From: Vicingaceae bacterium
GTDB taxonomy: Bacteria > Bacteroidota > Bacteroidia > Flavobacteriales_E > Vicingaceae
Length of the DNA stretch: 45,199 nt
Direction of reading: 5' to 3'
Assembly: GCA_029210015.1 (NCBI GenBank)
Contig: JARGOE010000008.1
Span: forward strand, 1 to 45,199
In this document: in pieces, positions 8,475 to 34,148 of the stretch
How positions within the stretch are numbered: the first letter of the stretch is position 1
How the letters are laid out: the number at the start of each line of letters is the position of its first letter
Translations under genes and position numbers: made by a program
The notes under the pieces: generated by a model
Told to the model about the DNA's origin: nothing
The model's database searches: none
What the model saw: only the letters and a program-made list of their open reading frames with translations

Positions 8475-10457
8475 ATGAAAAAAAATTTACTATTAGCTTC
8501 TGCTCTTGGTCTTGTTGTTTCTCTTCATGCCCAAGATAGAAGTAAAGCTGTATCTGTTGATCATTATGGACAAGCTCGAATTGACCAAGAGTCTCAACAA
8601 ATACCATCAAAGCCAATTTCTGCTCCAAATGCAAAAGCTGCTTCAACGGTAACTATTGGAACTTCTTATAATGTATTCTCTATATTAGGAGATAGACAAA
8701 ATCAAGTTGTTTATAACCCAGATATTAATACTGTTGCTTTTGTTCACAGACAAAATAATGGTGCTGCTGGTGGTTCAGGTATTATGTCACTTGATTACTC
8801 TACAGACGGAGGTTCTACATGGACCATCAACCCTTTCCAAACTACTCCAGATTTGGACAATGCTACAAGTAATGGAAATAGATATCCAAACATTGGTATC
8901 TACAACCCTTCTGGAAATACTGATACCGCTAATGCATACATTGTTCAGGCAGGACCTTCTTTACATAATACAGCTGCTAGTAATAATGGTTGGGCTAAAA
9001 CATTTAGAGCTTCAGCTAAGTTAGATGGATCTGACTTAGATGAAACTTACAACTTTTCTTCAACAGTATCGACTACTGGTGACCCGAATGAATGGGGTGC
9101 TGCTGGTTTATATGTAACAGCAAATGGTGAAGCATTTTATGTTTCAACTAACTGGAACAACCAAGGTGCTGCCGGAAGTGAGGATCCAAATTTTGATGTT
9201 CCTTCTTTGTATCATGACTATTATATTAATAGAGGTGTATTTAACTCTTCAACTAATACATTTGACTGGACAGTTGATACTATTACTCCTAACTGGTACC
9301 AAACTAGTGGTGACGGAAGTTTAGGTGGAGTTAGAGCAAATTGTGCTGGATTAGCCAATATGGCATGGGCACCAAATGGAAATATTGGATATGTTGTAAT
9401 TATGGGAGCTGACTCTAATTCAAACCAGAATACAATGTATAGACCATACGTTTTAAAAACTACTGATGGTGGTGATACATGGACTCAATTCGCTGACTAC
9501 GATTTTTCTTCAAATGCGGCAATGACATGTTACATTTGGGGATTAAATACTAACCAAACTATCCAAAGACCATTTTTTAGTTCTTTTGATTGTGTTGTAG
9601 ATAACAATGATGAGTTAAGAATCTTTGCTAAAGTAAACTCAGGTTTTTCTGAGCACCCAGATTCTTTAAATTATTCTTTTGCTGCATATCAAGCAAGTTT
9701 TTTATATGAAGTTGCTACAAATGGAAATAGCTGGGATGTAACTTTTATAGATTCAGTTTACAATGATGACTTTGTATTTGACGCAACAAATAACATGGCT
9801 CACCCTGTTAGACCTCAAGCTGGTAGAAGTCAAGATGGTTCAAAAGTATTCTACACTTGGTTATACGATGATTCAGGATTAAATAGTCTTGGTGAAAGAG
9901 AATTCCCTGATGTATATGCTGTAGGTCATGATGTTGCTTCAGGAAATTGGACTGCTTATACTAACATTAGTGCAGGTACAAATGCTCAATACATTGCTGG
10001 ATACCAAACTTTAGCTGTTGATGCAATTGAAAACGGATCAGAAAAAGCATGGGAATTACCAATAGTTTATGGTACTGATATTTCTGGAGGTACTTTATTT
10101 GATGGTACTGGTCCTGCACAATGGCACTTTTTAAAAGGTGTTGGATTTGATCAAGCAGATTTTACTACTCCAAAAACTCCAAACGCATGTACTGTTAGTA
10201 TTGATGAAGAAGAAGCATTAAACAATTCTACTTCTATCTTCCCTAACCCTACAAACGGAATCTTTGAAATTATGATTGCTAACACTGATAACTTCAGTTA
10301 TTCAGTGATGAACATCTTAGGCAACGTAATTGCTTCTGATAACGTTAGTGGAAACAGAACTTCAGTTAACTTAACAAACCAAGCTAAAGGAGCTTATTTT
10401 GTTCAAGTAACTACTGAAAATGGTGCAATTACTAAAAAAGTAATGGTAACTAAATAA
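8475..10457 (+). CDS. Secreted Asp-box (BNR-like) protein with T9SS type A sorting domain
   Basis: Signal peptide MKKNLLLASALGLVVSLHAQ; Asp-box-like STDGGSTWT and TTDGGDTWT; C-terminus SIFPNPTNGIFEIMIAN...GAYFVQVTTENGAITKKVMVTK. Confidence 0.88.
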   Translation: MKKNLLLASALGLVVSLHAQDRSKAVSVDHYGQARIDQESQQIPSKPISAPNAKAASTVTIGTSYNVFSILGDRQNQVVYNPDINTVAFVHRQNNGAAGGSGIMSLDYSTDGGSTWTINPFQTTPDLDNATSNGNRYPNIGIYNPSGNTDTANAYIVQAGPSLHNTAASNNGWAKTFRASAKLDGSDLDETYNFSSTVSTTGDPNEWGAAGLYVTANGEAFYVSTNWNNQGAAGSEDPNFDVPSLYHDYYINRGVFNSSTNTFDWTVDTITPNWYQTSGDGSLGGVRANCAGLANMAWAPNGNIGYVVIMGADSNSNQNTMYRPYVLKTTDGGDTWTQFADYDFSSNAAMTCYIWGLNTNQTIQRPFFSSFDCVVDNNDELRIFAKVNSGFSEHPDSLNYSFAAYQASFLYEVATNGNSWDVTFIDSVYNDDFVFDATNNMAHPVRPQAGRSQDGSKVFYTWLYDDSGLNSLGEREFPDVYAVGHDVASGNWTAYTNISAGTNAQYIAGYQTLAVDAIENGSEKAWELPIVYGTDISGGTLFDGTGPAQWHFLKGVGFDQADFTTPKTPNACTVSIDEEEALNNSTSIFPNPTNGIFEIMIANTDNFSYSVMNILGNVIASDNVSGNRTSVNLTNQAKGAYFVQVTTENGAITKKVMVTK

Positions 10458-15150: not shown

Positions 15151-16023
15151 ATGAGTAATTCTTTTACTAGATGTTTAATTACAGGAAACGAAGATCTTTA
15201 TCCTTTGAAAGGATATGAAGAGAATTACTTAGTTAAAAGTAAATCGAGTGGATTTATCTTTTGTTCAAAAATTCCAACTGAAGAGGAATTATTTAATTAT
15301 TACTCTAATTATCCTATTGGTTATGGTGCGGATTCTCCATTAAATATTAAACGTATTAAAGAGAGACTAGATGAATTTGAGCAATATCGAAAAAATAATA
15401 AAATACTAGATGTAGGTTGTGGTCCAGGATTATTTTTAATTGAAGCAAAAAAAAGAGGGTGGGAAGTTTATGGTACTGAATTTACTGACAAACAAATTGA
15501 ATACCTAACAAATAAAGGAATTAACACTTTTCAAGGTAAAATTACTGTTTCAAGCTTTGAGAAAGATAATTTTGATGTAATCATCTCTAGTGAAGTTATT
15601 GAACATATAAATAATCCTATCGAAGAAATCTCCAATTTCAATCTATTTCTACGAAAAGGAGGGTTACTATACGTTACAACTCCTAACTTTAACTCTCTAG
15701 AAAGATTTTTACTTAAAGGTAAATATAACATTATTAAGTACCCTGAACATCTATGTTATTTTACTCCTAAAACACTTAATTTACTACTTAGTAATAATGG
15801 CTTTAAAAGAGTTAAAATAAAAACTACAGGCATTAGTATTGCTCGAATTAAAAATAGCAAACCAAACAATAAAAACTTACATAGCACAGAATTAGAAAAT
15901 GATGAATATCTAAGAGAATCATTAGAGTATGGCTACAAAAAACAATTAAAAAATCTAATTAATTGGATATTAAACTTATTAAAAGTAGGAAATTCAATGA
16001 AAGCTTATTATGAGAAAATCTAA
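15151..16023 (+). CDS. Class I SAM-dependent methyltransferase
   Basis: ILDVGCGPGLFLIEAKKRGWEVYGTEF, FDVIISSEVIEHINNPIEEI. The track ORF begins at 15133 (TTG); ATG 15151 (MSNSFTRC) is preferred. Confidence 0.85.
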   Translation: MSNSFTRCLITGNEDLYPLKGYEENYLVKSKSSGFIFCSKIPTEEELFNYYSNYPIGYGADSPLNIKRIKERLDEFEQYRKNNKILDVGCGPGLFLIEAKKRGWEVYGTEFTDKQIEYLTNKGINTFQGKITVSSFEKDNFDVIISSEVIEHINNPIEEISNFNLFLRKGGLLYVTTPNFNSLERFLLKGKYNIIKYPEHLCYFTPKTLNLLLSNNGFKRVKIKTTGISIARIKNSKPNNKNLHSTELENDEYLRESLEYGYKKQLKNLINWILNLLKVGNSMKAYYEKI

Positions 16024-17324
16024 TCTGTTTGAAACAACATTTTAAAGTCAGTTTTCTTCAAAATGAACAAGTCTAAAACTTTAATCTTTTCTTTAACTAA
16101 TAGATTTATAAGTAAAACTATAAATAGTGCCATATAAGATAAACTAGTTGCCCATGCAGCTCCTAAGATTCCATATTGAGGTATTAAAACTAAATCTAAA
16201 ATTACAGTTGCAACCAAACCAACTGTATTTGCGATTAAAGCAACGTTGTTTTTCCCTTTAGAAAACAACATTATACTAAACAACTGACTCATTGCTGTAA
16301 AAATCATTCCTAACAATAGAATTGCAAAAGGTTCTGCAGAAAGAGCAAATTCGTTTCCATAGAGCAACACCAACAAATAATCTCCAATAAAAGCCAAAAC
16401 TAAAACCATGAGTATTACGGAAAGAAAGTTAATTCTTGAATAGATAGTAAAATACTTAACCCTTTGAACATCATTATCTTCTGACAAATAAGGCATCATA
16501 ACCCCTCCAATAATTTTAGAATATAGCAGAATAAATTGTGCAAAATTTACAGCTAAAACATAAAGACCTAACTGCTCATTTCCTTTGAAATAAGATACTA
16601 ACCAAATATCAAATCTATAATTTAAAAAATTAATTATTAAGCTTACAAAAACTGGAAGTATATAAATGAAAAAAGGTGATATATCCTTTTTAAAGGATAG
16701 CTTAAAACTTGGTTTAAAATCAACTTCTTTAAAAAAACTGTACAGCCACATCAATGTGTTTAACCCTAAGATTAATAAACTAACAGTAAAAATAAATTGA
16801 ATATCAATATTTAACACTCGTTGAGTATGGAAATAGAAAAGTGTAGAATAAGTAACCACATTAAAAACACTATTAATTAAACTAATTCTATTAATATATT
16901 TAAATGATTTAGTCGTTTTTAAAAAAGCTGATATCAGCGTATTCAAAACTTGCAAACTAAACATTCCTAACAAAAACAATTTAAAGAACAAGCCATTATA
17001 ATTATTAGGAAAAAGAAATTCTGCATCAAAAGATAGAAGACTTATAAATAAAACAGGTATAAAAATTAATAATATATATATTGCTATTCCTTGAATTTTT
17101 CCAAAATCTATTTTTTTATTTGACCCAAAATAGATAATACCCATATCACACCCCAATACAAATATCATGACCATAATCTCAATATTTGCATAAAAAATTG
17201 CATAAACCCCCTTACCTTCTGCTCCCAACAAACGAGTAAGAAAAATACCAGAAATTATACTAATAATTAAAGACGGAACTTGAGTTGAAAAAGTTCTAAG
17301 AATATTACCTGTAAGCCCTCTCAT
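16020..17324 (-). CDS. Polysaccharide flippase (Wzx/MOP-type)
   Basis: Many TM segments; FLTRLLGAEGKGVYAIFYANI N-terminus and LIPQYGILGAAWATSLSY C-terminal motif typical of MOP exporters. Confidence 0.88.
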   Translation of the reverse strand: MRGLTGNILRTFSTQVPSLIISIISGIFLTRLLGAEGKGVYAIFYANIEIMVMIFVLGCDMGIIYFGSNKKIDFGKIQGIAIYILLIFIPVLFISLLSFDAEFLFPNNYNGLFFKLFLLGMFSLQVLNTLISAFLKTTKSFKYINRISLINSVFNVVTYSTLFYFHTQRVLNIDIQFIFTVSLLILGLNTLMWLYSFFKEVDFKPSFKLSFKKDISPFFIYILPVFVSLIINFLNYRFDIWLVSYFKGNEQLGLYVLAVNFAQFILLYSKIIGGVMMPYLSEDNDVQRVKYFTIYSRINFLSVILMVLVLAFIGDYLLVLLYGNEFALSAEPFAILLLGMIFTAMSQLFSIMLFSKGKNNVALIANTVGLVATVILDLVLIPQYGILGAAWATSLSYMALFIVLLINLLVKEKIKVLDLFILKKTDFKMLFQTD

Positions 17325-17336
17325 TAGATTAATAAA

Positions 17337-18974
17337 CTATAATTTTAGTTTATACTTTACTTTAAACCAAAATTTTCGCCATTTGCTCTTTTTTATCTTT
17401 TCAGCTTGCTGCCAATTTAGATCTCGGTAAATATTATATTCATAAGATTGGTTGTCAAGATTTGTAACTTCTAATGAAACACCTTTAAAATGATATATAT
17501 ATGAATTTGTAACAATTGCTATTGATTTTTTTACCCTCTGACAAAGCTCATGCTCATTACCTACATTTTGGTTTCCTGGATAAAATAATTCATTATCACT
17601 ATACTCATACTCAATAATATCTCGATTTACAGAAAAGAAAAAACCATTAATGTAATCTACTTCTTTTGATTTTTGAGAAACTTGATTTTGGTTTATATAC
17701 TCTTGAACTTTTTCGGTATTTAAATAGTTGTATTCATCAAAAGGTAAATCATAAAAATTCCTTACATCTTGTTTTGGTTGATGCCCTACACCTTTTTTAG
17801 TGCTTAATGGAGAAACTATTATATAATTTTCATTCTGATGTAAAATGGCTTCTAAAGACTTTTTTGGAACAATAATATCACTGTTTGAAAACATCAAAAA
17901 TTTATAATTTTCGCTTTTAAACTTTTTATAAGCCAAATTCCAACTGTGAGTCAATCCTAAAGCTTTTTCTTTAGTTATTATTGGTATATTATTATCCCTA
18001 CACCATTCAATTGTACCGTCAATTGATGCATCATCATAAACTACAACATCAATATAATCAGGTTTGTTTTCAAATATACTTTTTAATCCTTTAATATTAT
18101 ATTCTAACTGATTAGCAGTTGTAAAAGCTAGCAATGTTCGGTTAGAATTATCTGACTTACTCTTATTTACAATAAAAGCTCCTGAAACAAAATTTAAAAA
18201 CTCAATAGATAAATCTTCAAATTCTGATTCCCACATTCTCGTTATCTCTTTCTCTTCATCTCTAATTCCATCATCTAATACTAAAACAGAGTTATTACTC
18301 ATTTTATCATATAATAGCGGAATAACAGGGTATCTTGATAATTCTTGAATATAATGAGGAGGACCATCAACAACAACCATATCAATTAGGCTACTATCTT
18401 TTAAGCAATCAATATCATACCAAATCCACTTTTTATTATTAATAGAGTAATCTTTAAGTGGAGCATGCACAATCTCAACAAATTCTAGAAGGTTATGATC
18501 TGAAATTAACTTTCTGCTTTTCTCAACATAATTAATATCATGTTCTAATGAAACAACTTTTCCTTTTCCTATCTTCTTAAAACAATAACCTATAATAATT
18601 GATGAAACCCCACTAGAAGCCTCAACTATAAATTTTGGCTTTTTTAATAATATTGTTTCAATAATTTTTTTTAGAAAATCAGGATGAGCTGCCCAACCAC
18701 CTGTTTCTGGTAAAGGTTTATTAATATCTAAATAGCTATATATAGATGTTAGTATTTCAAGTTGTTTATATTTTGAAGCTAACTCTTTTTCAGATTCAAT
18801 TCGTAAACGTTTCGTTTTTAAAGTATAGTTAATGTACAATCCAAAACTTACAATTATATAAAGGATAAAATAAGATAAATGTCCTAAATACTGCTCTCCA
18901 TAAGAAATAATTAACGCATAGAGCGCTACAAACATTATTAGAATAAATAGTATATTTTTCTTTCCAATCTTCAT
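17337..18974 (-). CDS. Fusion protein: two N-terminal TM segments, class I methyltransferase-like domain, GT2 glycosyltransferase domain
   Basis: FIVEASSGVSSIIIGYCFKKIGKGKVVSLEHDINYVEKSRKLI...IDMVVVDGPPHYIQ (Rossmann MTase-like), then YIDVVVYDDASIDGTIEWCRDNNIPII...NYKFLMFSNSDIIVPKKSL (GT-A, NSD motif). Confidence 0.75.
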   Translation of the reverse strand: MKIGKKNILFILIMFVALYALIISYGEQYLGHLSYFILYIIVSFGLYINYTLKTKRLRIESEKELASKYKQLEILTSIYSYLDINKPLPETGGWAAHPDFLKKIIETILLKKPKFIVEASSGVSSIIIGYCFKKIGKGKVVSLEHDINYVEKSRKLISDHNLLEFVEIVHAPLKDYSINNKKWIWYDIDCLKDSSLIDMVVVDGPPHYIQELSRYPVIPLLYDKMSNNSVLVLDDGIRDEEKEITRMWESEFEDLSIEFLNFVSGAFIVNKSKSDNSNRTLLAFTTANQLEYNIKGLKSIFENKPDYIDVVVYDDASIDGTIEWCRDNNIPIITKEKALGLTHSWNLAYKKFKSENYKFLMFSNSDIIVPKKSLEAILHQNENYIIVSPLSTKKGVGHQPKQDVRNFYDLPFDEYNYLNTEKVQEYINQNQVSQKSKEVDYINGFFFSVNRDIIEYEYSDNELFYPGNQNVGNEHELCQRVKKSIAIVTNSYIYHFKGVSLEVTNLDNQSYEYNIYRDLNWQQAEKIKKSKWRKFWFKVKYKLKL

Positions 18975-21959: not shown

Positions 21960-23084
21960 ATGAGTGATGGAATAACACATATCGTTGAAGTAATGGCTGA
22001 TCCCCATAGCGTTACCTACTTTAATCTTTTTGCTGAATATTCTAAAAAGCATCCAAATATTAAACTATCCTTCATCTCTTTAAACGATACAGAACCTCCT
22101 GTTCTTAAAGATATGAAAGAAAGAGGCTGCGATGCTTATTGGGTAAAATTTGACAATACTAAAAGAGCTAAAAGTTGGGTAAGCGCCTACTTTCAACTAA
22201 AAAAGATTTTTAAAAGAATTAAACCTGATGTAGTACATTCTCATCTTTTTGATGATGGAGTTCCAACTATGATTGCTGCTAAACATGCTGGAGTAAAAAA
22301 AAGAATACACACTAAACAAAGCACTACATTTAACTGGTTTTATGCCCCTAAAGCTGTTAAGCTAGATAGGTTTATAAACCGTTCAGCTACAGATTTAATA
22401 GCTGTATCTAATGAAGCTAAAAACTTTATTATTGAAAAAGAAAAAGCAGACCCATCTAAACTTCATTTAATTCATCATGGGATTTCATTTGATACTATCC
22501 AAAAAGTAGACAAAAAAGAAATAAATGACTTTAAAGCAAAATTTAATCTTGAAGGAAAAAGGATAATTGGTACTGTTAGTCGTTACATTAAGTGGAAGGG
22601 GTATATAGAATTTATTGAAGCTGCTAGCTTAATAAAAGATAAATATCCTGATGTTGTTTTTTTAGGAGTTGGTAGTGGTTCTCAGGAAGATGAACTTAAA
22701 CAATTAATTAAAGATAAAGGGTTGGAGCAACAATTCATACTAACCGGTTGGATTGAAAAAAAATATATTCCAGCAGTATTTCAATCATTCGATATTTACT
22801 TACATGCTGCATATATGGAACCTTTTGGTTTTGTAATACCTGAGGCAATGATAAATAAAGTTCCGATTGTTACAACACCTACAGGATCTGCTGCTGATGG
22901 ACTTACACATATGGAAAGTGCTTACATTGCACCTTACAATAATATTGAAGAACTTGCTAAAGGAATGGAGTATTTTTTAAATAATGATGGAAATTCTTTT
23001 ACAGAGAAAGCATACCAATCTGCTATAGATAATTTTAGTATTGAACGTATGTGGAATGATCACCTAACCTTGTATCTAAAATAA
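21960..23084 (+). CDS. Glycosyltransferase family 4
   Basis: KPDVVHSHLFDDGVPTMIAAKHAGVKKRIHTKQ; IIGTVSRYIKWKGYIEFIEAA; FDIYLHAAYMEPFGFVIPEAMINKVPIVTTPTGSAADG. Confidence 0.93.
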   Translation: MSDGITHIVEVMADPHSVTYFNLFAEYSKKHPNIKLSFISLNDTEPPVLKDMKERGCDAYWVKFDNTKRAKSWVSAYFQLKKIFKRIKPDVVHSHLFDDGVPTMIAAKHAGVKKRIHTKQSTTFNWFYAPKAVKLDRFINRSATDLIAVSNEAKNFIIEKEKADPSKLHLIHHGISFDTIQKVDKKEINDFKAKFNLEGKRIIGTVSRYIKWKGYIEFIEAASLIKDKYPDVVFLGVGSGSQEDELKQLIKDKGLEQQFILTGWIEKKYIPAVFQSFDIYLHAAYMEPFGFVIPEAMINKVPIVTTPTGSAADGLTHMESAYIAPYNNIEELAKGMEYFLNNDGNSFTEKAYQSAIDNFSIERMWNDHLTLYLK

Positions 23085-23085
23085 C

Positions 23086-23706
23086 ATGTTAAAGAATATA
23101 GTAATTATTGATTATGGTGCTGGCAATCACTTTTCTGTTCATAAAAAATTGAATCGTCTAGGATATAACGTTACAACCTCTAATGATTTTGAAACTATAA
23201 AAAATGCTGATAAGCTTGTTATGCCGGGTGTTGGACATTTTGGAAAAGCCATGGGAAATTTAAAACAGTTAAATTTAATCGATGTTTTAAATGAAGAAGT
23301 ACTTGAGAAAAAGAAACCTATTTTAGGTATATGTTTAGGCATGCAAATAATGGCAAACTCAAGCGAAGAAGGTAATGTAAAGGGATTAAATTGGTTTGAT
23401 GCAACAGTTGAAAAATTTAAAATCAATAATCAACTACTACATAAGGTACCACACACTGGTTGGAATCAAATTAATATAAATAAGGAATCTAAGCTTTTAA
23501 ATAACGTCCCAAACAATTCTGAATTTTATTTTGTCCATTCTTATTACTTTAAATGCAATAATCAATCAGATATATTGTGTGAAACACAATATGAATCTAA
23601 ATTTGTATCAGCAATTGAGAAAAACAATATATATGGCACTCAATTTCACCCAGAAAAAAGCCATAATATTGGTATGCAATTATTAAAGAATTTTATTGAA
23701 CTATAA
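23086..23706 (+). CDS. HisH-type glutamine amidotransferase subunit (acetamidino-modification paralog)
   Basis: VIIDYGAGNHFSVHKKL, KLVMPGVGHFGKAM, ILGICLGMQIMA (nucleophile Cys), YGTQFHPEKSH (His/Glu). Confidence 0.92.
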   Translation: MLKNIVIIDYGAGNHFSVHKKLNRLGYNVTTSNDFETIKNADKLVMPGVGHFGKAMGNLKQLNLIDVLNEEVLEKKKPILGICLGMQIMANSSEEGNVKGLNWFDATVEKFKINNQLLHKVPHTGWNQININKESKLLNNVPNNSEFYFVHSYYFKCNNQSDILCETQYESKFVSAIEKNNIYGTQFHPEKSHNIGMQLLKNFIEL

Positions 23707-24458
23707 TGTATCGTCCAAGAGTCATACCTGTATTATTATTGCAAAATAATGGATTGGTTAAATCTGTTAAATTTAAAAACAACACGTACATTGGTGACCC
23801 ACTTAACGCTGTTCGAATTTATAATGATTTAAAAGTTGATGAAATTGTATTACTTGATATTGATGCTACTAGAGAGAATAGAACTATTTCTATAGATTTA
23901 GTGAGAGAAATTGGTGAAGAAGCAAACATGCCTTTTTCTGTGGGAGGTGGTATTAAGGATATAGAAACAATCCAAAAAATAACTAGTGCTGGTGCTGAAA
24001 GGGTTATATTAAATAGTTTTGCTATAGAAAACCCCAGTTTTGTTAAACAAGCTGCTGAGAATTTTGGTTCATCTACCATATGTGTTTGTATAGATTATAA
24101 AAAAAAGTGGGGAAAAGAGAAGGTTTATATAAACGCAAGTAAAAAAAACACTGGAAAAGATGTTATTTCAACAGCATTAGAAATGCAGAACGCAGGTGCA
24201 GGAGAAGTCATCATTCAATCTATAGATAGAGATGGCTCTATGACTGGTTATGATTTAGAAATGATAAAAAAGGCTTCTGAAGCATTAACAATTCCTGTTG
24301 TTGCTTTAGGTGGGGCTGGCACTAAAGAAGATATTGAAAACGTATATAAATTTGGTTATGCAAACGGATTAGCTGCTGGCAGTTTTTTTGTTTTTAAAGG
24401 CACTCACAGAGGAGTTTTAATACAATACCCAGAAATAAAAAACTATAATTTTAGCTAA
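23706..24458 (+). CDS. HisF2/WbuZ-type protein (acetamidino sugar modification)
   Basis: MYRPRVIPVLLLQNNGLVKSVKFKN..., FSVGGGIKDIETIQKITSAGAERVILN, IIQSIDRDGSMTGYDLEMIKKAS, VVALGGAG. Start overlaps the hisH stop (TAATG). Confidence 0.92.
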   Translation: MYRPRVIPVLLLQNNGLVKSVKFKNNTYIGDPLNAVRIYNDLKVDEIVLLDIDATRENRTISIDLVREIGEEANMPFSVGGGIKDIETIQKITSAGAERVILNSFAIENPSFVKQAAENFGSSTICVCIDYKKKWGKEKVYINASKKNTGKDVISTALEMQNAGAGEVIIQSIDRDGSMTGYDLEMIKKASEALTIPVVALGGAGTKEDIENVYKFGYANGLAAGSFFVFKGTHRGVLIQYPEIKNYNFS

Positions 24459-25585
24459 TGACTGACAAAACTTATCAAATATGTAATCGTTGTGTTATGG
24501 ATACTTCAGATCCTGACATTTTGTTTGATGATAAGGGTAACTGTAATCATTGTGAAGATTTTTTAACTAGAATTAATTTACAAACATATATTCCAGGCAA
24601 ATCAGAAAAGCAGTTTGAACACATTGTTAACATAATTAAAGAAAAAGGTAAAAATCAAGCTTACGATTGTATTGTTGGTATTAGTGGAGGTGTAGATAGT
24701 TGTTATACAGCCCACCTTTGTAAAGAACATGGCCTTAGACCTTTACTTATTCATATGGATAATGGGTGGAACACTGAAATATCCGTAAAGAATGTAAAAA
24801 CGATGGTTGAGAAACTTGGCTTTGACTACGTAAGTTACGTACTAGATTGGCAAGAATTTAGGGAAATACAACTTGCATTTTTAAAATCATCAATTGTTGA
24901 TTTAGAAATGCCAACTGACATTGCTATTCCTGCATCTATTTACAAAACTGCAGTTAAACATAACATTAAATATATTTTGCCAGGAGGCAATTATACTGCC
25001 GAAGGTATTTTACCTTTACAAATGGGCTATCATGTTTATAAAGACATGAAATTGTACAGACATATCGTAAAAAAATATTCATCAGTAAAACTTAAAACAG
25101 TTCCTACTTTTGGGCTATTAAAAGAAATTTATTACAAATTTGGTAAAGGAATAAAAAAGGCATACCCCTTAAATTACATACCTTTTGATAAAGATAAAGC
25201 TCGTGAATTTTTGATACAAAACTATGGCTGGGAAAATTACGGTGGCAAACATCATGAATCAAAAATAACTGCATTTTGGCAATCTTATGTAATGCCTACC
25301 AAATTCAATATGGATTATCGTAGAACTACTTTTGCATCACAAATATGCTCAAAACAAATTAGTAGAGAAGAAGCAATAAAAGAACTGAAAAAATGCCCTT
25401 ACGATAAATCTAAAATTGATGATGATAAAAAATATATTGCTAAAAAATTTGGAATCTCATTAGATGAATTAGAAAAATATCTTGCCTTACCACCTAAAAC
25501 TTACGTTGATTTTCCTAACAACAAAAGTTTAATTAGCTTTGTTTACAAGACGTATAACAAACTGTTCCCCAACAAGAGGATTTAA
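24458..25585 (+). CDS. N-acetyl sugar amidotransferase (WbpG-like, PP-loop ATP pyrophosphatase)
   Basis: ICNRCVMDTSDPDILFDDKGNCNHC, YDCIVGISGGVDSCYTAHLCKEHGLRPLLIHMDNGWN. Confidence 0.93.
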   Translation: MTDKTYQICNRCVMDTSDPDILFDDKGNCNHCEDFLTRINLQTYIPGKSEKQFEHIVNIIKEKGKNQAYDCIVGISGGVDSCYTAHLCKEHGLRPLLIHMDNGWNTEISVKNVKTMVEKLGFDYVSYVLDWQEFREIQLAFLKSSIVDLEMPTDIAIPASIYKTAVKHNIKYILPGGNYTAEGILPLQMGYHVYKDMKLYRHIVKKYSSVKLKTVPTFGLLKEIYYKFGKGIKKAYPLNYIPFDKDKAREFLIQNYGWENYGGKHHESKITAFWQSYVMPTKFNMDYRRTTFASQICSKQISREEAIKELKKCPYDKSKIDDDKKYIAKKFGISLDELEKYLALPPKTYVDFPNNKSLISFVYKTYNKLFPNKRI

Positions 25586-26455
25586 ATGAAAAACACCAAC
25601 CTAGTTTCTGTAATTATTCCAGTATATAATGCTGAAAATTATATTGAAGAAACTGTGTTGTCTGTATTAAATCAAACGCATGAGGAAATCGAACTAATTA
25701 TTGTTAATGATGGTAGTAAAGACAATACTCTTGCAAAGTTAAATCAGCTTAAAGAAAAAAAATCTAGAATAACCATAATTGACAAACCAAACTCTGGAGT
25801 TTGTGATTCTAGAAATATGGGAACAGAAAATGCAACGGGAAAGTTTATCACTTTTTTAGATGCTGATGATGTATGGGAGCCAACATTTATAGAGGATTGT
25901 TTAAATGTATTTAATACTGATTTAAGTATAAAAGCTGTTTATTGTAGAGTTCAATTAATCAATGAAAAATCTGATAAACTTGAAGAATTTATTGAAGCTA
26001 AAACCATCGAATCTGCAACAGATGTATTAGAGTGGAAAAGAGATTATGTAGCATCTATGGGCTGTACAATTTATTATACAGAAGTTGCGAAAAAAGCTGG
26101 AAAATTTGACCCTAGATTGAGTACAGCTGCAGATCAAGACTTTCATTTAAGAGTAGCCTCAATTACTCCTATCGTTGGCCTTGATAGAGTATTATTTTAT
26201 TATAGAATTCATGAAAACAATATGCATTCTAACATTAGTGTAATGGAGAAAGATCATATTCTTGTTTTTAAAAAAGCAGAGAAAATGAACTTGTACCCTT
26301 CATTTTGGTTTAAGCAAAAGTGCTTTTCCAAATTATATTTAACTCTTGCAGGTAGTTGGTGGAAAAATGGTAATAATAAAGCTAGAGGACTTTATTTTAT
26401 CTTAAGATCATTTTTTTGTTATCCACCAACAATTCTTAAAAGAATAGTTAAATGA
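25586..26455 (+). CDS. Glycosyltransferase family 2
   Basis: VSVIIPVYNAENYIEETVLSVLNQTHEEIELIIVNDGSKDNTL...GKFITFLDADDVWEPTFIE. Confidence 0.96.
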   Translation: MKNTNLVSVIIPVYNAENYIEETVLSVLNQTHEEIELIIVNDGSKDNTLAKLNQLKEKKSRITIIDKPNSGVCDSRNMGTENATGKFITFLDADDVWEPTFIEDCLNVFNTDLSIKAVYCRVQLINEKSDKLEEFIEAKTIESATDVLEWKRDYVASMGCTIYYTEVAKKAGKFDPRLSTAADQDFHLRVASITPIVGLDRVLFYYRIHENNMHSNISVMEKDHILVFKKAEKMNLYPSFWFKQKCFSKLYLTLAGSWWKNGNNKARGLYFILRSFFCYPPTILKRIVK

Positions 26456-27657
26456 ATGTTATAGTAGTTACATATTGGAGCTACAAAGATGCGTTAATCC
26501 AAACCTATACTTTACCTTATGTAAAGATTATTCAGAACAACATAAATTCTGGAAGAGTATATTTAGTAACAATAGAAAACCCATTTCATCAAATGAATGA
26601 TACTGAATGGGAAAATGAATGCAAAAAACTTCAAAACGAAAATATTGAGTTAATAAGGTTTAAGTATGATCATTTTGGTATAAAGATGATTTTTAGGTTT
26701 TTTAGCATTATTCTTAATCTAATCAAATTGATTAAAAAAGAAAAAATATCAGTTATACACTGTTGGTGCTTAACTGCAGGAGCCTTAGGTTATTTATTAT
26801 CAATTTTCACTAAAAAACCATTAATAATAGATAGCTACGAACCACACGCAGAAGCAATGGTTGAAAATGGAACTTGGAAAAAATCTAGCTTAAAATTTAA
26901 ACTATTATTTTGGTTAGAAAAAAAGCAAAGTAAACGAGCCAAAACTGTTATTGCTTTAACTGAAGGAATGGCTAATTATGCCATAGAAAAATACAACACG
27001 ACCTTTAAAAATTACTATATAAAACCTGCCTTAGTTAACCTCACCAAATTTGATAGTAATCAAAAGTTATATGAAGCCAAACGAAAAGAAAAAGGAATTT
27101 CAAGCGAAATAGTTGGTTTATATGCTGGGAAATTTGGAGGAATTTATTTAAAGGAAGAAATATTTGATTTAATAAAAGTAGCTTCTGAGTATTGGAAAGG
27201 CAATTTCAAATTCTATATTCTTTCGAATATAGATAAAAAATTAGTTAATTCTTATTTACAGAAAAAGCAAATAGACAAAAGCTATATTGAAGTTATTTTT
27301 GTTGATTATCATGAAATTGAAAATTATTTCCATTTAGCAGATTTTGCTATTAACCCTGTAAAACCTGTTACTACAAAAAAATATTGCACATCAATTAAAG
27401 ATGGTGAATATTGGGCAGCTGGCTTGCCTGTAATTATTACAAAAAACATTTCTGATGACTCTGAAATAATTAATAATAACAATATCGGATATGTTTTAAA
27501 TGATCTATCAAGTGAAGAATATTTAGAGGCTTGTAAAAAAATAGATTCTTTAATTAGCAAGAATAAAGATGAATTAAGAAATAAAATCAAATCAATAGCT
27601 GAAAAATATAGAAGTTTTACTATTGCGGAGAATATTTATAAAGAAGTATATTCGTAA
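26452..27657 (+). CDS. Glycosyltransferase (GT-B fold, GT4-like)
   Basis: VIHCWCLTAGALGYLLSIF, LIIDSYEPHAEAMVENGTW, YFHLADFAINPVKPVTTKKYCTSIKDGEYWAAGLPVIIT. Confidence 0.82.
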   Translation: MNVIVVTYWSYKDALIQTYTLPYVKIIQNNINSGRVYLVTIENPFHQMNDTEWENECKKLQNENIELIRFKYDHFGIKMIFRFFSIILNLIKLIKKEKISVIHCWCLTAGALGYLLSIFTKKPLIIDSYEPHAEAMVENGTWKKSSLKFKLLFWLEKKQSKRAKTVIALTEGMANYAIEKYNTTFKNYYIKPALVNLTKFDSNQKLYEAKRKEKGISSEIVGLYAGKFGGIYLKEEIFDLIKVASEYWKGNFKFYILSNIDKKLVNSYLQKKQIDKSYIEVIFVDYHEIENYFHLADFAINPVKPVTTKKYCTSIKDGEYWAAGLPVIITKNISDDSEIINNNNIGYVLNDLSSEEYLEACKKIDSLISKNKDELRNKIKSIAEKYRSFTIAENIYKEVYS

Positions 27658-27683: not shown

Positions 27684-28673
27684 ATGGTTTCATTAGTTAC
27701 AGGAGGAGCAGGTTTTATTGGTGCACATGTTACCAATGAACTAATAAAATTAGGGCATAAAGTAGTAGTAGTTGATGACTTGAGCGGTGGTTTTGAAGAT
27801 CATGTTAATGAAAAAGCAATATTTATTAAAGGTTCTGTAACCGACAATAAGTTGGTGAAAGAATTATTTAAAGAGTATAAGTTTAATTACGTTTACCATT
27901 TAGCTGCATATGCAGCTGAAGGTCTGAGTCATTTTATTCGTAGGTTTAATTATGATAATAATTTAATTGGAAGTATAAACCTTATAAACGAATCAATTAA
28001 ACATAAAATTGACCGTTTTGTTTTTACCTCTTCAATTGCGGTATATGGAGCACTTGAGCCTCCAATGAGAGAAGATATGCACCCACAACCTGAAGACCCT
28101 TATGGTGTAGCAAAATATGCTGTTGAACTTGATTTAAAAACTGCTCATGAAATGTTTGGTTTAAACTATACTATTTTTCGACCTCACAATGTTTATGGGG
28201 AGTACCAAAACATTGGGGATAAATATAGAAACGTGGTAGGAATATTTATGAATCAATTAATGCAAGGTAAATCTCTCTCAGTATTTGGAGACGGGCAGCA
28301 AACTAGAGCTTTTAGCTATATTGGAGATGTAGCTCCATACATTGCAAATTGTGTTAATATACCTGAAAGTAAAAATGAAATATTTAATATAGGAGCAGAT
28401 CAAGAATATACTGTTTTAGAATTAGCTGAAACCATACAAGAGTCGATGAGTATGAATCAAGAAATCATGTATTTAGATGCTAGAAATGAAGTACTTCACG
28501 CTCATGCTGATCATCAAAAAGCAAAAAATATTTTTAACATATCTGAGTTTACTTCATTAGAAGAAGGAATTATAAAAATGGCTAATTGGGCTGAAAAAGT
28601 TGGTTCAAGAAAAAGTTCTAAATTTGAGAACATAGAAATTACAGAGAAACTACCACCTTTTTGGTCAGAATAA
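27684..28673 (+). CDS. NAD-dependent epimerase/dehydratase (UDP-glucose 4-epimerase-like)
   Basis: VSLVTGGAGFIGAHVTNELIKLGHKVVVVDDLSGG, FTSSIAVYGA, DPYGVAKYAVELD (YxxxK), FRPHNVYGEYQNIGD. Confidence 0.92.
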   Translation: MVSLVTGGAGFIGAHVTNELIKLGHKVVVVDDLSGGFEDHVNEKAIFIKGSVTDNKLVKELFKEYKFNYVYHLAAYAAEGLSHFIRRFNYDNNLIGSINLINESIKHKIDRFVFTSSIAVYGALEPPMREDMHPQPEDPYGVAKYAVELDLKTAHEMFGLNYTIFRPHNVYGEYQNIGDKYRNVVGIFMNQLMQGKSLSVFGDGQQTRAFSYIGDVAPYIANCVNIPESKNEIFNIGADQEYTVLELAETIQESMSMNQEIMYLDARNEVLHAHADHQKAKNIFNISEFTSLEEGIIKMANWAEKVGSRKSSKFENIEITEKLPPFWSE

Positions 28674-28676
28674 TTT

Positions 28677-29756
28677 ATGCCAAAGATATTATTTATAGCT
28701 ACTCATCGTCCAAACCGATCTCCTAGTCAGAGGTTTAGATTTGAGCAATATTTAGATTTTTTAAAAAGTGAGAATTGGCAATACGATTTTTCTTATTTAA
28801 TATCTGAAAAAGCAGATAAAGTTTTTTATAAAAAAGGACATTTTTTTCAAAAAATATTTATCATAATTAATGGTTTTTTTAAACGATTAAAAGATGTAAA
28901 TAGAGCATCAGAATATGATATTGTATTTGTTCAGCGTGAAGCTTTTATAACAGGTACAACTTATTTTGAAAAAAGATTTGCAAAAACTAGAGCTAAATTA
29001 GTATTTGATTTTGATGATGCCATTTGGTTGTCTAATGTTTCAGACGCAAATAAAAAATGGAATTGGCTGAAAAACCCTAGTAAAACGAGAAAAATCATAA
29101 CTATTGCTGACATGGTTTTTGCAGGGAACGAGTATTTAGCAAACTATGCAAAAGAAACTAATCATAATGTTAAAATTATCCCAACAACTATTAATACTAA
29201 CCGTCATGTTAAAAAGAATACGAAAAATGGAGATGAAAGAATATGTATTGGTTGGACTGGAAGTATAACAACGATTCAACACTTTGAATATGCTATTCCT
29301 TTTTTAACCAAAATCAAACGTAAATATAAAGACCTAATAGAAATAAAAGTGATAGGAGATAGTAGCTATACAAATCTTGAACTTGATATCCATGGAATAG
29401 CATGGAGTAAAGACACAGAAATAAATGAGCTATCTTCATTTGATATAGGCATAATGCCTTTACCAAATGACGAATGGTCGAACGGAAAGTGTGGTTTAAA
29501 AGGACTGCAATATATGGCTATCGGAATTCCTACAATTATGTCGCCTGTTGGTGTAAACACCGAAATTATTAATGATGGAGAAAATGGTTTCTTAGCCAAC
29601 TCTAATGATGAATGGATTATAAAAATTGAGGCATTAATTGAATCAAAAGAATTAAGAGCTAGTTTAGGTGAAAAAGGGAGAGAAACTGTTATAAAAAAGT
29701 ACTCAGTAGAAGCTAACAAGAATAAATACTTAACACATTTTAATGAACTCATTTAA
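28677..29756 (+). CDS. Glycosyltransferase (GT4-like)
   Basis: FDFDDAIWLSNV, ICIGWTGSITTIQHFEYAIPFL, CGLKGLQYMAIGIPTIMSPVGVNTEIINDGENGFLA. Confidence 0.9.
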   Translation: MPKILFIATHRPNRSPSQRFRFEQYLDFLKSENWQYDFSYLISEKADKVFYKKGHFFQKIFIIINGFFKRLKDVNRASEYDIVFVQREAFITGTTYFEKRFAKTRAKLVFDFDDAIWLSNVSDANKKWNWLKNPSKTRKIITIADMVFAGNEYLANYAKETNHNVKIIPTTINTNRHVKKNTKNGDERICIGWTGSITTIQHFEYAIPFLTKIKRKYKDLIEIKVIGDSSYTNLELDIHGIAWSKDTEINELSSFDIGIMPLPNDEWSNGKCGLKGLQYMAIGIPTIMSPVGVNTEIINDGENGFLANSNDEWIIKIEALIESKELRASLGEKGRETVIKKYSVEANKNKYLTHFNELI

Positions 29757-30436
29757 TGTTTTACTTATTCATATCAATACTTATAATTTGCACAATCCTT
29801 ACCGTTTACTTTTTATTTAAAGAGTTTCAAGAAGTTTCATATTTAAAAGGTGTTTTAAGTGATATTATTGGGAAAGATACAATATCTGAAGTAAATGATT
29901 TAATTAAGATTAAAAATTTCTTGAATCGAAATATTAAGTATAATGATAAATTAAAATCTCAAAAACGCCCTTTGCTTAGAAATACAGCCTCTCAAACTCT
30001 AAAAACTGGACTTGGGTTTTGTGGCGAAAATGCAAGACTAGCTATTAAGATTCTTATTCTTGGAAGTATTAAGGCTAGAAGAATATATCTTTTTAGAAAA
30101 GTTTGGCAACATGTTTTAGTTGAACATTCCTGGAAAGGATCTTGGTTTATGTTTGACGGGCATTATGACCCAGATACACTTCTAAATGATCATAACGTTA
30201 CCAAAATAAGAAGTGAAAAAATAAATCAATACCCAAATGATTATCCTAACAACCCTTATCTAGACTTTTGTAGAATAAAATTATTTTATATTATACGCCC
30301 ACTTAGGTTCATGTCAAAAATTAAATTACCTATTAGCTTTGTTTATTTAATGGAATCTCCTTTAATTATTAAAAGTTTGATCTGCTTTGTTTTCACTTTA
30401 ACAGCATCCATTACTTTATTGAACTATTGGTTTTAA
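29756..30436 (+). CDS. Membrane-anchored transglutaminase-like (papain-fold) protein
   Basis: N- and C-terminal TM segments flank LKTGLGFCGENARLAIKILI...VWQHVLVEHSWKGSWFMFDGHYDPD: ordered Cys/His/Asp candidates as in transglutaminase-like domains. Confidence 0.6.
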   Translation: MFYLFISILIICTILTVYFLFKEFQEVSYLKGVLSDIIGKDTISEVNDLIKIKNFLNRNIKYNDKLKSQKRPLLRNTASQTLKTGLGFCGENARLAIKILILGSIKARRIYLFRKVWQHVLVEHSWKGSWFMFDGHYDPDTLLNDHNVTKIRSEKINQYPNDYPNNPYLDFCRIKLFYIIRPLRFMSKIKLPISFVYLMESPLIIKSLICFVFTLTASITLLNYWF

Positions 30437-31372
30437 ATCTTTAATCAGTTTAATCGCAAAATTTTGAGTGCCTTTTGCATTTAAATGATTAGAGTTATAA
30501 AAGTATTTCTTATCAAAACATATTGAATCTTTAGAATAATCAATAAATGGAATATTATTGTCTGATGAAATTTTATCTATTAGATCTATAAGCATATTCC
30601 TATCTTTAATAAAATTTTGACCTAAAATATGTTCAGGTGTATAAATAAAAATTAAATCAATATCAGCTTTTTTACATTCGGATATAAACCTCTTAAATAA
30701 TTGAATTGTCGGTTGATGATATTTAATTTCATAATGCTTCATTTTTTTCATAGTTTCCACTAAATCTTTATTCCACTCTTCATCAATGGGCATAAAACCT
30801 TTTAGTCTTCCTTTCTTTTGTTCATCTTTCTTCAAAATCATCTTCAACACTGTATTAATAGCACCTTTTTTACCTATGTAACGAAGACAAGGGATATAGC
30901 AATCATAAGTAGAGTAACCTATATAAGAATTGAGACTATTATTAAAGTTAGTGTTAAATAATAGGTAAGGTAAAAATTGGTCTGAATTATACAAATCTTC
31001 TCTCTTCTGAAAAGTGAAAGGGTCTACAGAAACAATAATAGTTTTTGGTTGATTATTATATTTTAAAAAAGTTTTATGTCTTAAATATTGAAGCCAAAAA
31101 TTATGCCCATCAATACCTAGATTATAAGTTGTTTTACCTAAGCCTTTTTCTATCAAATAGGGATTAATATTAACCCAAGATCTTGAAGATCCATAAATTA
31201 AAATTTCAGAATTTATCTTACCTTCAAAAATGTCATTCCATACAGAATACTCGCCATAAGAATGAGCATTACTCTTTTTAAGGTTTATTGATATTAAAAC
31301 ATCTAAAGGGTAAAGTAAAGCTATTATTGGGATAGAAAATATAACCCAGTTTAAAATAAATCTTTTCATCAT
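30416..31372 (-). CDS. Membrane-anchored SGNH/GDSL-like hydrolase or acyltransferase-type protein
   Basis: N-terminal TM; ILIYGSSRSWVNINPYLIEKGLGKTTYNLGIDG (block I-like GSSR) and FIDYSKDSICFDKKYFYNSNHLNAKGTQNFA (block V-like NHLNAKG). Confidence 0.65.
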   Translation of the reverse strand: MMKRFILNWVIFSIPIIALLYPLDVLISINLKKSNAHSYGEYSVWNDIFEGKINSEILIYGSSRSWVNINPYLIEKGLGKTTYNLGIDGHNFWLQYLRHKTFLKYNNQPKTIIVSVDPFTFQKREDLYNSDQFLPYLLFNTNFNNSLNSYIGYSTYDCYIPCLRYIGKKGAINTVLKMILKKDEQKKGRLKGFMPIDEEWNKDLVETMKKMKHYEIKYHQPTIQLFKRFISECKKADIDLIFIYTPEHILGQNFIKDRNMLIDLIDKISSDNNIPFIDYSKDSICFDKKYFYNSNHLNAKGTQNFAIKLIKDLKPIVQ

Positions 31373-31388
31373 TTAAAATATAGCGAAA

Positions 31389-32735
31389 TCAAAAAATAGA
31401 ATTATTTTCTTTATTGGTCTTATCAACAATTAACACTAAAGCAATCACAAAAAACATCTGAGCAGGGATTTTATATCGAGATAAAGCTCCAAAGTTATAT
31501 GAACTAATTCCAACACTAATGCCAAATAATATTGAAAATAATAGCAAAAAAGTAATGTCTTTGTTTTTTGATATAACCCTGAATAAACTTAATCTATATT
31601 TAAATAATAAATAAATAACAAAAAACATCAAAAGTGTTCCTTCAATAGCACCTAATAATGTTGATGCATTGTATACTTCCCATGGGTATGGCCTAAAAAA
31701 TGTCACCTCAATAGCTGCAGGTATTTTTTTTAATATACCTGTTGCTGTAAAGTCCATATCATCCCCTAAGGTATAACCTGATTGATGCTTCGTTTCAGAA
31801 ACTGTAGTATGCCAAGTTTGAAAACCTTCTAAAGTACCTTCAATCCTATCAAGATTATATTTTCCAGCACTTTGAGATAATTGATCAGTTAAAAAATATG
31901 AACTTACAATTAAAGCTATAGCGACTAAAGGAGCTATCAATCTTCTTAAAAATTGACTTTGAATTAATGCCTTTAAATTTGATTGAACCCAAATAAATAA
32001 GCAAGGATACAGTATATATAAAATATAAGGCTTAACGCTTGCAATCGTAATGGTTGCTATAATTATTAAAACAAAACTAAGCCATCGTTTTCTTTTAAAA
32101 ATAACTATATTCATAAAAGAATAAACCAAAAATCCAACTGAAGCTAATGTAATGGTATCTTTTAATATTCCTGAACCCCACAATATAACCGAAGGAATAA
32201 AAAAGAATGCATAAAATAATTGTTTCCTTAAATGAGGATAGATTTTACAAAACACATAATACATATTCCAGACACCCAAAAATGAAATTACTGAATAAAT
32301 AACGGTGCTAACTACGTAAGATTGAAAACAAACCATATTTACAATAGCTGTAATTTTAACAGTAGTGAAATTAGCTGAAGACTTTAAAAAATCATGGCGG
32401 TTAAAAGCAAACTTATATTTATACCAGTTCATATTTTCAACAGAACTAAAAAACAGTTTATATCGTTCTAATGGGTCCTCTATAATATATGTAAGCATAT
32501 CCCTCCCAGTATTGTAATAAGAATAAGTATCTCCTCCTCCCCAATAATAAACTGTAAGAAACATAAAGCCCAAACCACCAAATATTTTTATATAAAGAGC
32601 TTTCATAAAGTATTCATAATTCGAATCTATTTGAGATTTTTTTCTTTTATAAGCATAAAAAATTATGGATAGTATTACTATATAACAAAATGCAAGAATG
32701 TAGTCGAATGCCCATATATCCGGAACGTAACTCAT
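31389..32735 (-). CDS. Multi-pass membrane protein, possible polysaccharide polymerase or GT-C-like (paralog A)
   Basis: About 10 hydrophobic segments; TVYYWGGGDTYSYYNTG, IPSVILWGSGILKDTI, VTFFRPYPWEVYNASTLLGAIEG, ISSYNFGALSRYKIP; co-linear with 32820..34148. Confidence 0.6.
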   Translation of the reverse strand: MSYVPDIWAFDYILAFCYIVILSIIFYAYKRKKSQIDSNYEYFMKALYIKIFGGLGFMFLTVYYWGGGDTYSYYNTGRDMLTYIIEDPLERYKLFFSSVENMNWYKYKFAFNRHDFLKSSANFTTVKITAIVNMVCFQSYVVSTVIYSVISFLGVWNMYYVFCKIYPHLRKQLFYAFFFIPSVILWGSGILKDTITLASVGFLVYSFMNIVIFKRKRWLSFVLIIIATITIASVKPYILYILYPCLFIWVQSNLKALIQSQFLRRLIAPLVAIALIVSSYFLTDQLSQSAGKYNLDRIEGTLEGFQTWHTTVSETKHQSGYTLGDDMDFTATGILKKIPAAIEVTFFRPYPWEVYNASTLLGAIEGTLLMFFVIYLLFKYRLSLFRVISKNKDITFLLLFSILFGISVGISSYNFGALSRYKIPAQMFFVIALVLIVDKTNKENNSIF

Positions 32736-32819
32736 ATAATTAACTTAGGAAAAAATTGTTTATAATACTCCAAACAAAGTTAGAAGAAAAAATTAGATAG
32801 CTATAACCTGGTTTTTTGT

Positions 32820-34148
32820 TTAGATTTTTTTTGAATTATTAGCCTGAAGAATTATTATCATACCAACCAACAGCAACATTATTGAAGTAATTTTATACCT
32901 TGTTAGTGCTCCAAAATTATAAGAACTTACCCCAACTACTATAGCAAAACAAATAGAGAAAGTTATTAAAAATAAAATAAAATTATCTTTTAAAAGTATT
33001 TTCAATAAATGCTTTCTTGTATTGAATAATATATACACAACAAATAGCAATAGCAAAAAAGATTCGAGTGCACCTAATAACATTGGTAAATTATTTACTT
33101 CCCAAAAGTATGGCCTAAAAAAAGTAACATTAATTGCTGATGGTACTTTATAGAAAATATCTATAGGATTTTCTACTACTCCTCCCAATATATAACTATT
33201 CTGCCCACGAGCAAAAACATCCATTGTATGAAAAGTTTGAAATCCTTTTAAAGTATTAAATAAATTTGAAATTCGATATTTCGAATTAACATCTGTAGTA
33301 AAATTATTCAGTATTATTCCTAAACCAATTAAGACAATAAATATCAAAAAATTAAATAACCTTCTTTTTTGTTTATTACTTATTTTTCTTGTTATAAAGG
33401 GTAATATCCAAATTAAACTAATTGGCAGAAGAACCATAATAATTATGGGTTTTAAATAATAAATTAATACAACTGAAAAGACACAAATTAACCCACTCCA
33501 GAAGATAATCTTTCTTAAGCTAAGAATGTTTATCATAGTAAACAGTAAAAGGCAGACCAAAGAAACGACTATAGTATCTTTCAATATACCTGAACTCCAA
33601 ATTAAAGCTGTTGGTATAAGAAAAAAAGGAACTAACAAATATTTTTGTACTATAGGGTAAATTTTAGTTATAGATATATAAGCCAGCCATAAACCAATAA
33701 AAGAAATTGATGAAAACAATATTGTAGTAGCTAAATAAGAACCCATTCCTAAAATATTAAATAAAAATACTATTCTACTAAAAAACCATGTTGTAGGCCT
33801 TTCATAATAAAAACCATATTGTTCTAAAGGATTATAACCGGAGTTTTTTAATTCGGAATATGAACTAAAAAAAGTAGAAATAGTATTATTAAAATCTTCA
33901 AATAAATTTCCCCTTAAGTTTTCTGCAATTTCAAAATATAAAAAGGTATCACCTCTTTGATAGTAATATATTGAGATTAAAAAAAATACTAACCCTCCCA
34001 CCAATTTTAAAGAAAGTGAAAGAATAAAGTATTGATAACTTTGGTTATTTTGCACCTTGCTTTTATATACTTTAAAAGCAATAAAATATATTACTGCTAA
34101 ATAAAATAAACTAACAAGTATATCAAACCATTCCGTTTTTGGAATCAT
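32820..34148 (-). CDS. Multi-pass membrane protein, possible polysaccharide polymerase or GT-C-like (paralog B)
   Basis: SIYYYQRGDTFLYFEIAENL, IPTALIWSSGILKDTI, VTFFRPYFWEVNNLPMLLGALES, VSSYNFGALTRYKIT; co-linear with 31389..32735. Confidence 0.6.
   Translation of the reverse strand: MIPKTEWFDILVSLFYLAVIYFIAFKVYKSKVQNNQSYQYFILSLSLKLVGGLVFFLISIYYYQRGDTFLYFEIAENLRGNLFEDFNNTISTFFSSYSELKNSGYNPLEQYGFYYERPTTWFFSRIVFLFNILGMGSYLATTILFSSISFIGLWLAYISITKIYPIVQKYLLVPFFLIPTALIWSSGILKDTIVVSLVCLLLFTMINILSLRKIIFWSGLICVFSVVLIYYLKPIIIMVLLPISLIWILPFITRKISNKQKRRLFNFLIFIVLIGLGIILNNFTTDVNSKYRISNLFNTLKGFQTFHTMDVFARGQNSYILGGVVENPIDIFYKVPSAINVTFFRPYFWEVNNLPMLLGALESFLLLLFVVYILFNTRKHLLKILLKDNFILFLITFSICFAIVVGVSSYNFGALTRYKITSIMLLLVGMIIILQANNSKKI

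Follow-up and report, generated by a model that had tools for sequence, protein, structure and literature searches.

A tandem pair of membrane proteins from a Vicingaceae glycan locus represents a probable GT-C-type glycosyltransferase family with distant similarity to EpsG and PMT_2

To our knowledge, many surface-glycan loci of Bacteroidota contain no recognised polymerase, and the locus considered here raises the question of which of its proteins might perform this step. The window, meaning the whole stretch of 45,199 nucleotides that was analysed, originates from a Vicingaceae bacterium with a genome of approximately 2.43 Mb that is 82% complete. Of the named relatives among the matches listed from the species collection, the nearest are MAGs with the labels Vicingaceae and Vicingus serpentipes. 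A preliminary description had pointed to a glycan locus with a flippase but no recognisable Wzy, and in agreement with this view the Pfam models of Wzy, WaaL and EpsG matched none of the predicted window genes that were scanned. The same description proposed that two adjacent genes of this locus, designated A and B (Table 1), encode either a polysaccharide polymerase or a GT-C family not described before.

Table 1. Genes A and B and the glycan-related genes in their neighbourhood (window positions).
Feature	Position	Strand	Remarks
Flippase-like protein (Polysacc_synt / MurJ-like)	16020-17324	-	
GT4 glycosyltransferase of the glycan locus	21960-23084	+	
HisH-like, HisF-like and WbuX (N-acetyl sugar amidotransferase) genes	23086-25585	+	Modified-sugar set
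GT2 (TuaG-like) and GT4 glycosyltransferases	25586-27657	+	
NAD-dependent sugar epimerase/dehydratase	27684-28673	+	
GT4-type glycosyltransferase	28677-29756	+	
318-aa protein	30416-31372	-	16 bp downstream of A, same strand
Gene A	31389-32735	-	448 aa; clade I member of an apparently undescribed GT-C-like membrane protein family; predicted 11 TM, N-out
Gene B	32820-34148	-	442 aa; tandem paralog of A

The flippase-like protein is the sole further open reading frame of the window, besides A and B, that contains at least three hydrophobic segments. The set of HisH-like, HisF-like and WbuX genes would be expected for an amidino- or amide-modified sugar in the glycan of this locus. Additionally, positions 17337-18974 of the window encode a 545-aa protein in which a methyltransferase-like domain is followed by a GT2 domain, and positions 6515-8308 and 8475-10457 each encode a protein with a C-terminal sorting domain for type IX secretion. 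The 318-aa protein next to A has no match in Pfam or NCBIfam; its GSSR...NLGIDGH motif may indicate an SGNH-type accessory enzyme.

Both open reading frames were verified at the positions given in Table 1; they are separated by 84 bp, with B located upstream of A. The full-length similarity that had been noticed by eye was reproduced by BLASTP, which aligned 440 residues with 35% identity and one gap position (E 2e-88), and every sequence block listed in the preliminary description is present in both proteins, namely GDT(Y/F)xY, IPS/TxxxWxSGILKDTI, FQT(W/F)HT, VTFFRPYxWEV, LLGAxE and SSYNFGAL(S/T)RYKI. The aspartate assigned earlier to the first predicted extracytoplasmic loop corresponds to D69 in A and D67 in B, lies immediately past TM helix 2, where a long loop begins, and shows approximately 99% conservation across the family. 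The proteins thus share a trait of GT-C enzymes, being polytopic with an acidic, catalytic-type residue that opens the first long predicted extracytoplasmic loop. The conserved residues of A comprise K50, D69, Y73, W186, S188, K192, D193, K235, R348, E365, N414, R420 and K422. Since B retains every key residue (outer-face residues D67, K190, K233, R345, E362, R417 and K419), this gene apparently represents a working duplicate in the window genome.

Neither A nor B yielded a match above cut-off in Pfam or NCBIfam, and a PDB sequence search gave no match at E 10 for A or for a profile of 59 family members; a confident match of both proteins to an unrelated characterised family was accordingly found in none of these three resources. 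Hits to MerF, ClcA, HpsJ, TgpA_N and others in Pfam and NCBIfam were rejected, as they were far under cut-off or restricted to one or two members. With respect to PMT_2 (PF13231), A and B gave no match, and the Pfam scan of the 59 members returned a single one (3.6e-5); the clade II protein G047:C19 (in locus L073) exceeds the gathering cut-off of this model with 27.8 versus 26.1 bits. The EpsG model (PF14897) matched neither A nor B nor any protein of their own genome, the best of the 59 members reached an E value of 0.63, and a direct HMMER comparison of the family with EpsG found nothing. A description of the family was not found in the literature, and the serotype polymerases of Flavobacterium psychrophilum belong to other Pfam families (PMC5601056). 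Judged from Pfam, NCBIfam, PDB and the literature, the family of A and B thus appears to be undescribed.

Family members were found in 54 of 60 related genomes, most of which carry two of them. A scan of 84,980 species genomes revealed at least 529 relatives, and the best 80 of these are all labelled Bacteroidota or subgroups thereof, except for one 'uncultured bacterium'. In an even draw over the phylum, members occurred in at least 27 of 297 genomes, mostly from one class; this count is a lower bound because scoring was restricted, in most genomes, to the top five candidates. No relative was detected in the viral collection IMG/VR, and the plasmid collection contained no match to the family. 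The family is wider than the two clades described below, since a divergent group of proteins with 375-427 aa reaches 39-104 bits against the family profile. This group (L217-L224) is characterised by the motifs GGDxxxYW, FWTAGxGKD, FRPLFxDAHN and NLGIxxRxK; it keeps the D, K/R, FRP and NLG..R.K landmarks and, as a third group, connects further taxa of the phylum. An apparent fusion protein of 1355 aa (L091) was judged to be no fusion, as the ORF continues across an extended, unrelated open frame of a GC-rich genome.

A maximum-likelihood tree separated the A- and B-like proteins (clade I) from clade II, which is represented in the window's genome by a gene on another contig (C103; G000:C103:6893-8236, locus L056). 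The two clades differ in their surroundings. When non-redundant loci of at least 14 kb were inspected for members of at least one of five glycosyltransferase clusters within approximately 10 kb, such genes were present in 69 of 76 clade I loci and in 0 of 30 clade II loci; the expected association with glycan loci therefore holds for clade I and not for clade II. The commonest immediate clade I neighbour (37/104) belongs to the cluster of the GT4-type glycosyltransferase encoded at positions 28677-29756. Among 110 clade I loci, counted before removal of duplicates, EpsG or Wzy_C proteins were found in none, a PMT_2-like protein in two and a flippase in only 25. In locus L117, genes for a GT4 glycosyltransferase, Wza (Poly_export), Wzc (Wzz/kinase), WecA (Glycos_transf_4) and a family member follow each other on one strand, and the latter precedes the housekeeping genes purH and mreBC-pbp2-rodA. 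In most of the relatives sampled, a clade II gene (L056 and L057-L075) is located beside one for an amidohydrolase, PurL or Nth, where PurL and Nth are names that we presume from reading the sequences, and no glycan genes were observed near them. Since clade II is located outside glycan loci, membership in the family alone does not imply a polymerase.

AlphaFold2 models of A (pLDDT 93.2, pTM 0.92) and B (pLDDT 89.7, pTM 0.90) were used to relate the conserved residues to the membrane. The model helices of A, together with positive-inside loops, fit an N-out topology with 11 TM helices, the basic loops being located at residues 32-40, 163-173, 211-218, 252-264 and 378-393. In this predicted topology nearly all conserved residues, including Asp69, Tyr73, Lys192, Lys235, Arg348, Glu365 and Arg420, are assigned to the outer face, where they fall into the loop 66-139 or into segments near 187-195, 235, 290-356 and 411-423. 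Across the 59 members, G154, P181, W186, K235, P349, G416 and R420 are invariant, and K50, D69, Y73, S188, G189, K192, P339, R348, E365, F400, G409, K422 and P424 are nearly so.

The profile comparison recommended in the preliminary description was carried out by means of hhalign and separated two families from the background. EpsG was matched by three family alignments with probabilities of 92% (A1), 56% (A2) and 88% (all 152 members) and by clade II alone with 95%, and PMT_2 with 84%, 69%, 84% and 69% in the same order, whereas reversed EpsG, PMT_2 and Wzy_C profiles reached at most 6.6%. As the comparisons are one-against-one, the contrast with these controls weighs more than the absolute values. 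Wzy_C remained at background level (0.4-2.4%), and three flippase sets, acyltransferase-3 and WecA gave 1% or less. Nine of ten multi-TM clusters of neighbouring genes that served as a null set scored 0.3% or less; the tenth (cluster 65) reached 75.8% and contains proteins scoring on the PMT_2 profile.

The EpsG match spans the full length of the family. Residues D69, Y73, K192 and K235 align with D53, Y57, R153 and H187 of EpsG, which are conserved in 20-21 of 21 EpsG proteins, and EpsG, like the family, tends to start with two TM helices followed by a GxDxxxY-type motif that opens a long loop. Moreover, the SG-L-(K/R) site and the K/H site both carry a basic residue, and an arginine is located near the C-terminus. 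Deviations are apparent as well: of the invariant D, Y, R, H, R set of EpsG, the family keeps D and Y, replaces Arg153 and His187 by Lys192 and Lys235, and has its last arginine (R420) 3-4 columns off EpsG R314; furthermore, it contains an extra conserved FRPxxWE...E block. In the polymerases of clan GT-C3, an extended loop near the N-terminus is combined with a signature of one Asp, one His and two Arg (PMC10920833). By this described signature, the CAZy GT-C3 families GT122-GT124 resemble the family in the long N-terminal loop, the Asp, the outer-face residues and the occurrence in polysaccharide loci, but differ from it in that the family has Lys at two EpsG-type places. We infer from the matching residues that EpsG may correspond to clan GT-C3, a relation not stated in that publication.

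The PMT_2/ArnT-like enzymes of class GT-C_A (PF13231; GT39, GT83 and others) share with the family the commonest PMT_2 lysine (22/28), which aligns with K235, and GT-C enzymes head the fold search. They differ in that the profile match begins only at residue 147-149 and that the inspected PMT_2 proteins have one hydrophobic segment before the Asp, whereas the family and EpsG tend to have two. The spacing of D69 and Y73 is that of D58 and Y62 in the GT-C_A enzyme PimE, in which Y62 forms a hydrogen bond to the base D58, the phosphate is stabilised by K195 and H322, and the exchanges D58A, Y62A and K195A abolish activity (PMC12041525). Proteins of the Wzy_C/WaaL type (PF04932; GT-C1) are likewise polytopic and act on lipid-linked glycans, as the family would be expected to do, but they show no profile similarity to it.

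The Foldseek search against PDB, also recommended in the preliminary description, agreed with that proposal in the order of the hits and fell short of it in significance. The first four hits of model A were ALG12, ArnT, AglB and DPY19, and the first seven of model B, all of them GT-C enzymes, were DPY19, ArnT, ALG12, OST-A, ArnT, DPY19 and GPI mannosyltransferase I. No match reached E 1e-3 for either model; the GT-C matches had probabilities up to 0.96, E values of 0.36 or higher and TM-scores of 0.24-0.44 on the query. Because E never fell below 0.36 and the TM-scores stayed under 0.5, the modelled fold is suggestive of GT-C and carries weight because both models rank the hits consistently. 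The best viral structural match of model A is A0A514K2W1 from a Nitrosopumilus spindle-shaped virus in BFVD (prob 1.00, TMt 0.62, E 0.044); this uncharacterised membrane protein of an archaeal virus may itself be GT-C-like, as judged from the models.

In summary, profiles, fold ranking and outer-face residues sustain the GT-C part of the original proposal, whereas the polymerase part is drawn from the locus context. We consider it very probable that the family consists of GT-C-type glycosyltransferases, and A and B are likely inner-membrane enzymes with distant kinship to EpsG and PMT_2. With respect to clade I, the best single role is that of a Wzy-type repeat-unit polymerase, an assignment that we hold slightly more probable than its opposite. 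An undecaprenyl-diphosphate-linked oligosaccharide repeat unit, delivered by the Wzx-like flippase, would enter from the outer leaflet. Given the PimE-like spacing of D69 and Y73 and the position of K235 at the PMT_2 lysine, Asp69, held by Tyr73, would be the base that activates the acceptor hydroxyl, and Lys192, Lys235, Arg348 and Arg420 would hold the (di)phosphate leaving group. An inverting transfer would then lengthen the chain, and clade I would provide the missing Wzy of an LPS/EPS-type glycan. On the other side, Wzy_C proteins are encoded elsewhere in the window's genome (contigs C83 and C32) and could be the polymerase, clade II belongs to the same family and lies outside glycan loci, and PMT_2-type decorators fit the fold equally well.

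The latter point leads to the main rival, according to which A and B are GT-C_A enzymes that add a single sugar from undecaprenyl-phosphate onto a finished glycan, like Gtr enzymes, GT136 and ArnT, so that two copies would mean two side-chain sugars. The class indicated by the fold ranking and by the PMT_2 match mostly uses lipid-phosphate monosaccharides, and GT136 systems provide a precedent for GT-C decorators within O-antigen loci (PMC11127046). However, neither a GtrA flippase nor a UbiA-type polyprenyl-phosphate synthase was found among the window genes scanned, the member in L117 completes a Wza-Wzc-WecA operon that has no other polymerase, and the EpsG match includes the two TM helices before the Asp; we therefore regard decoration as rather unlikely. 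Still less probable is that A and B act as ligases or oligosaccharyltransferases, which would transfer a completed lipid-linked glycan to lipid A-core or protein. Oligosaccharyltransferases do occur within GT-C_A, the fold matches include AglB and OST-A, and in most of the relatives sampled the clade II gene stands alone, which would suit a general transferase; against this, clade I goes with glycan assembly genes and the similarity to Wzy_C/WaaL is absent. Transporters or flippases, suggested by the polytopic architecture without a catalytic domain outside the membrane and by weak hits such as ClcA, were rejected as very improbable, since the transporter matches are far under cut-off, the three flippase sets scored 1% or less and the conserved charged residues map to the predicted outer face.

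Returning to the putative polymerase of clade I, the two copies had been thought to provide two linkage specificities or to act as a heterodimer, and the comparative data lend little support to either idea. A and B form separate supported groups within clade I, each with relatives from their own genus, and most relatives have a single copy per locus. Among the loci fetched, the tandem arrangement is confined to the genus; in one genome (G012) two other genes lie between the A and B copies, and in another (G008) the B copy contains in-frame stops while A is intact. An obligate heterodimer of A and B is unlikely, because most genomes have single copies, the tandem arrangement is restricted in this way and one relative has a defective B beside an intact A. 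B would probably be a duplication product with the same chemistry as A, perhaps with another linkage or acceptor.

A more far-reaching reading, which we put forward tentatively and with less than even confidence, is that of a new polymerase-class family bridging GT-C_A monosaccharide transferases and EpsG-type polymerases, with Lys-Lys in place of Arg-His; in many glycan loci of Bacteroidota, clade I would then provide the Wzy, and clade II would be a near-core glycosyltransferase of some pathway in the same bacteria. A large family with a profile link to EpsG and PMT_2, with candidate catalytic residues and with two contrasting clades offers a testable candidate for the missing polymerase step, and it bears on the kinship of GT-C enzymes that use lipid phosphates and those that use lipid diphosphates.
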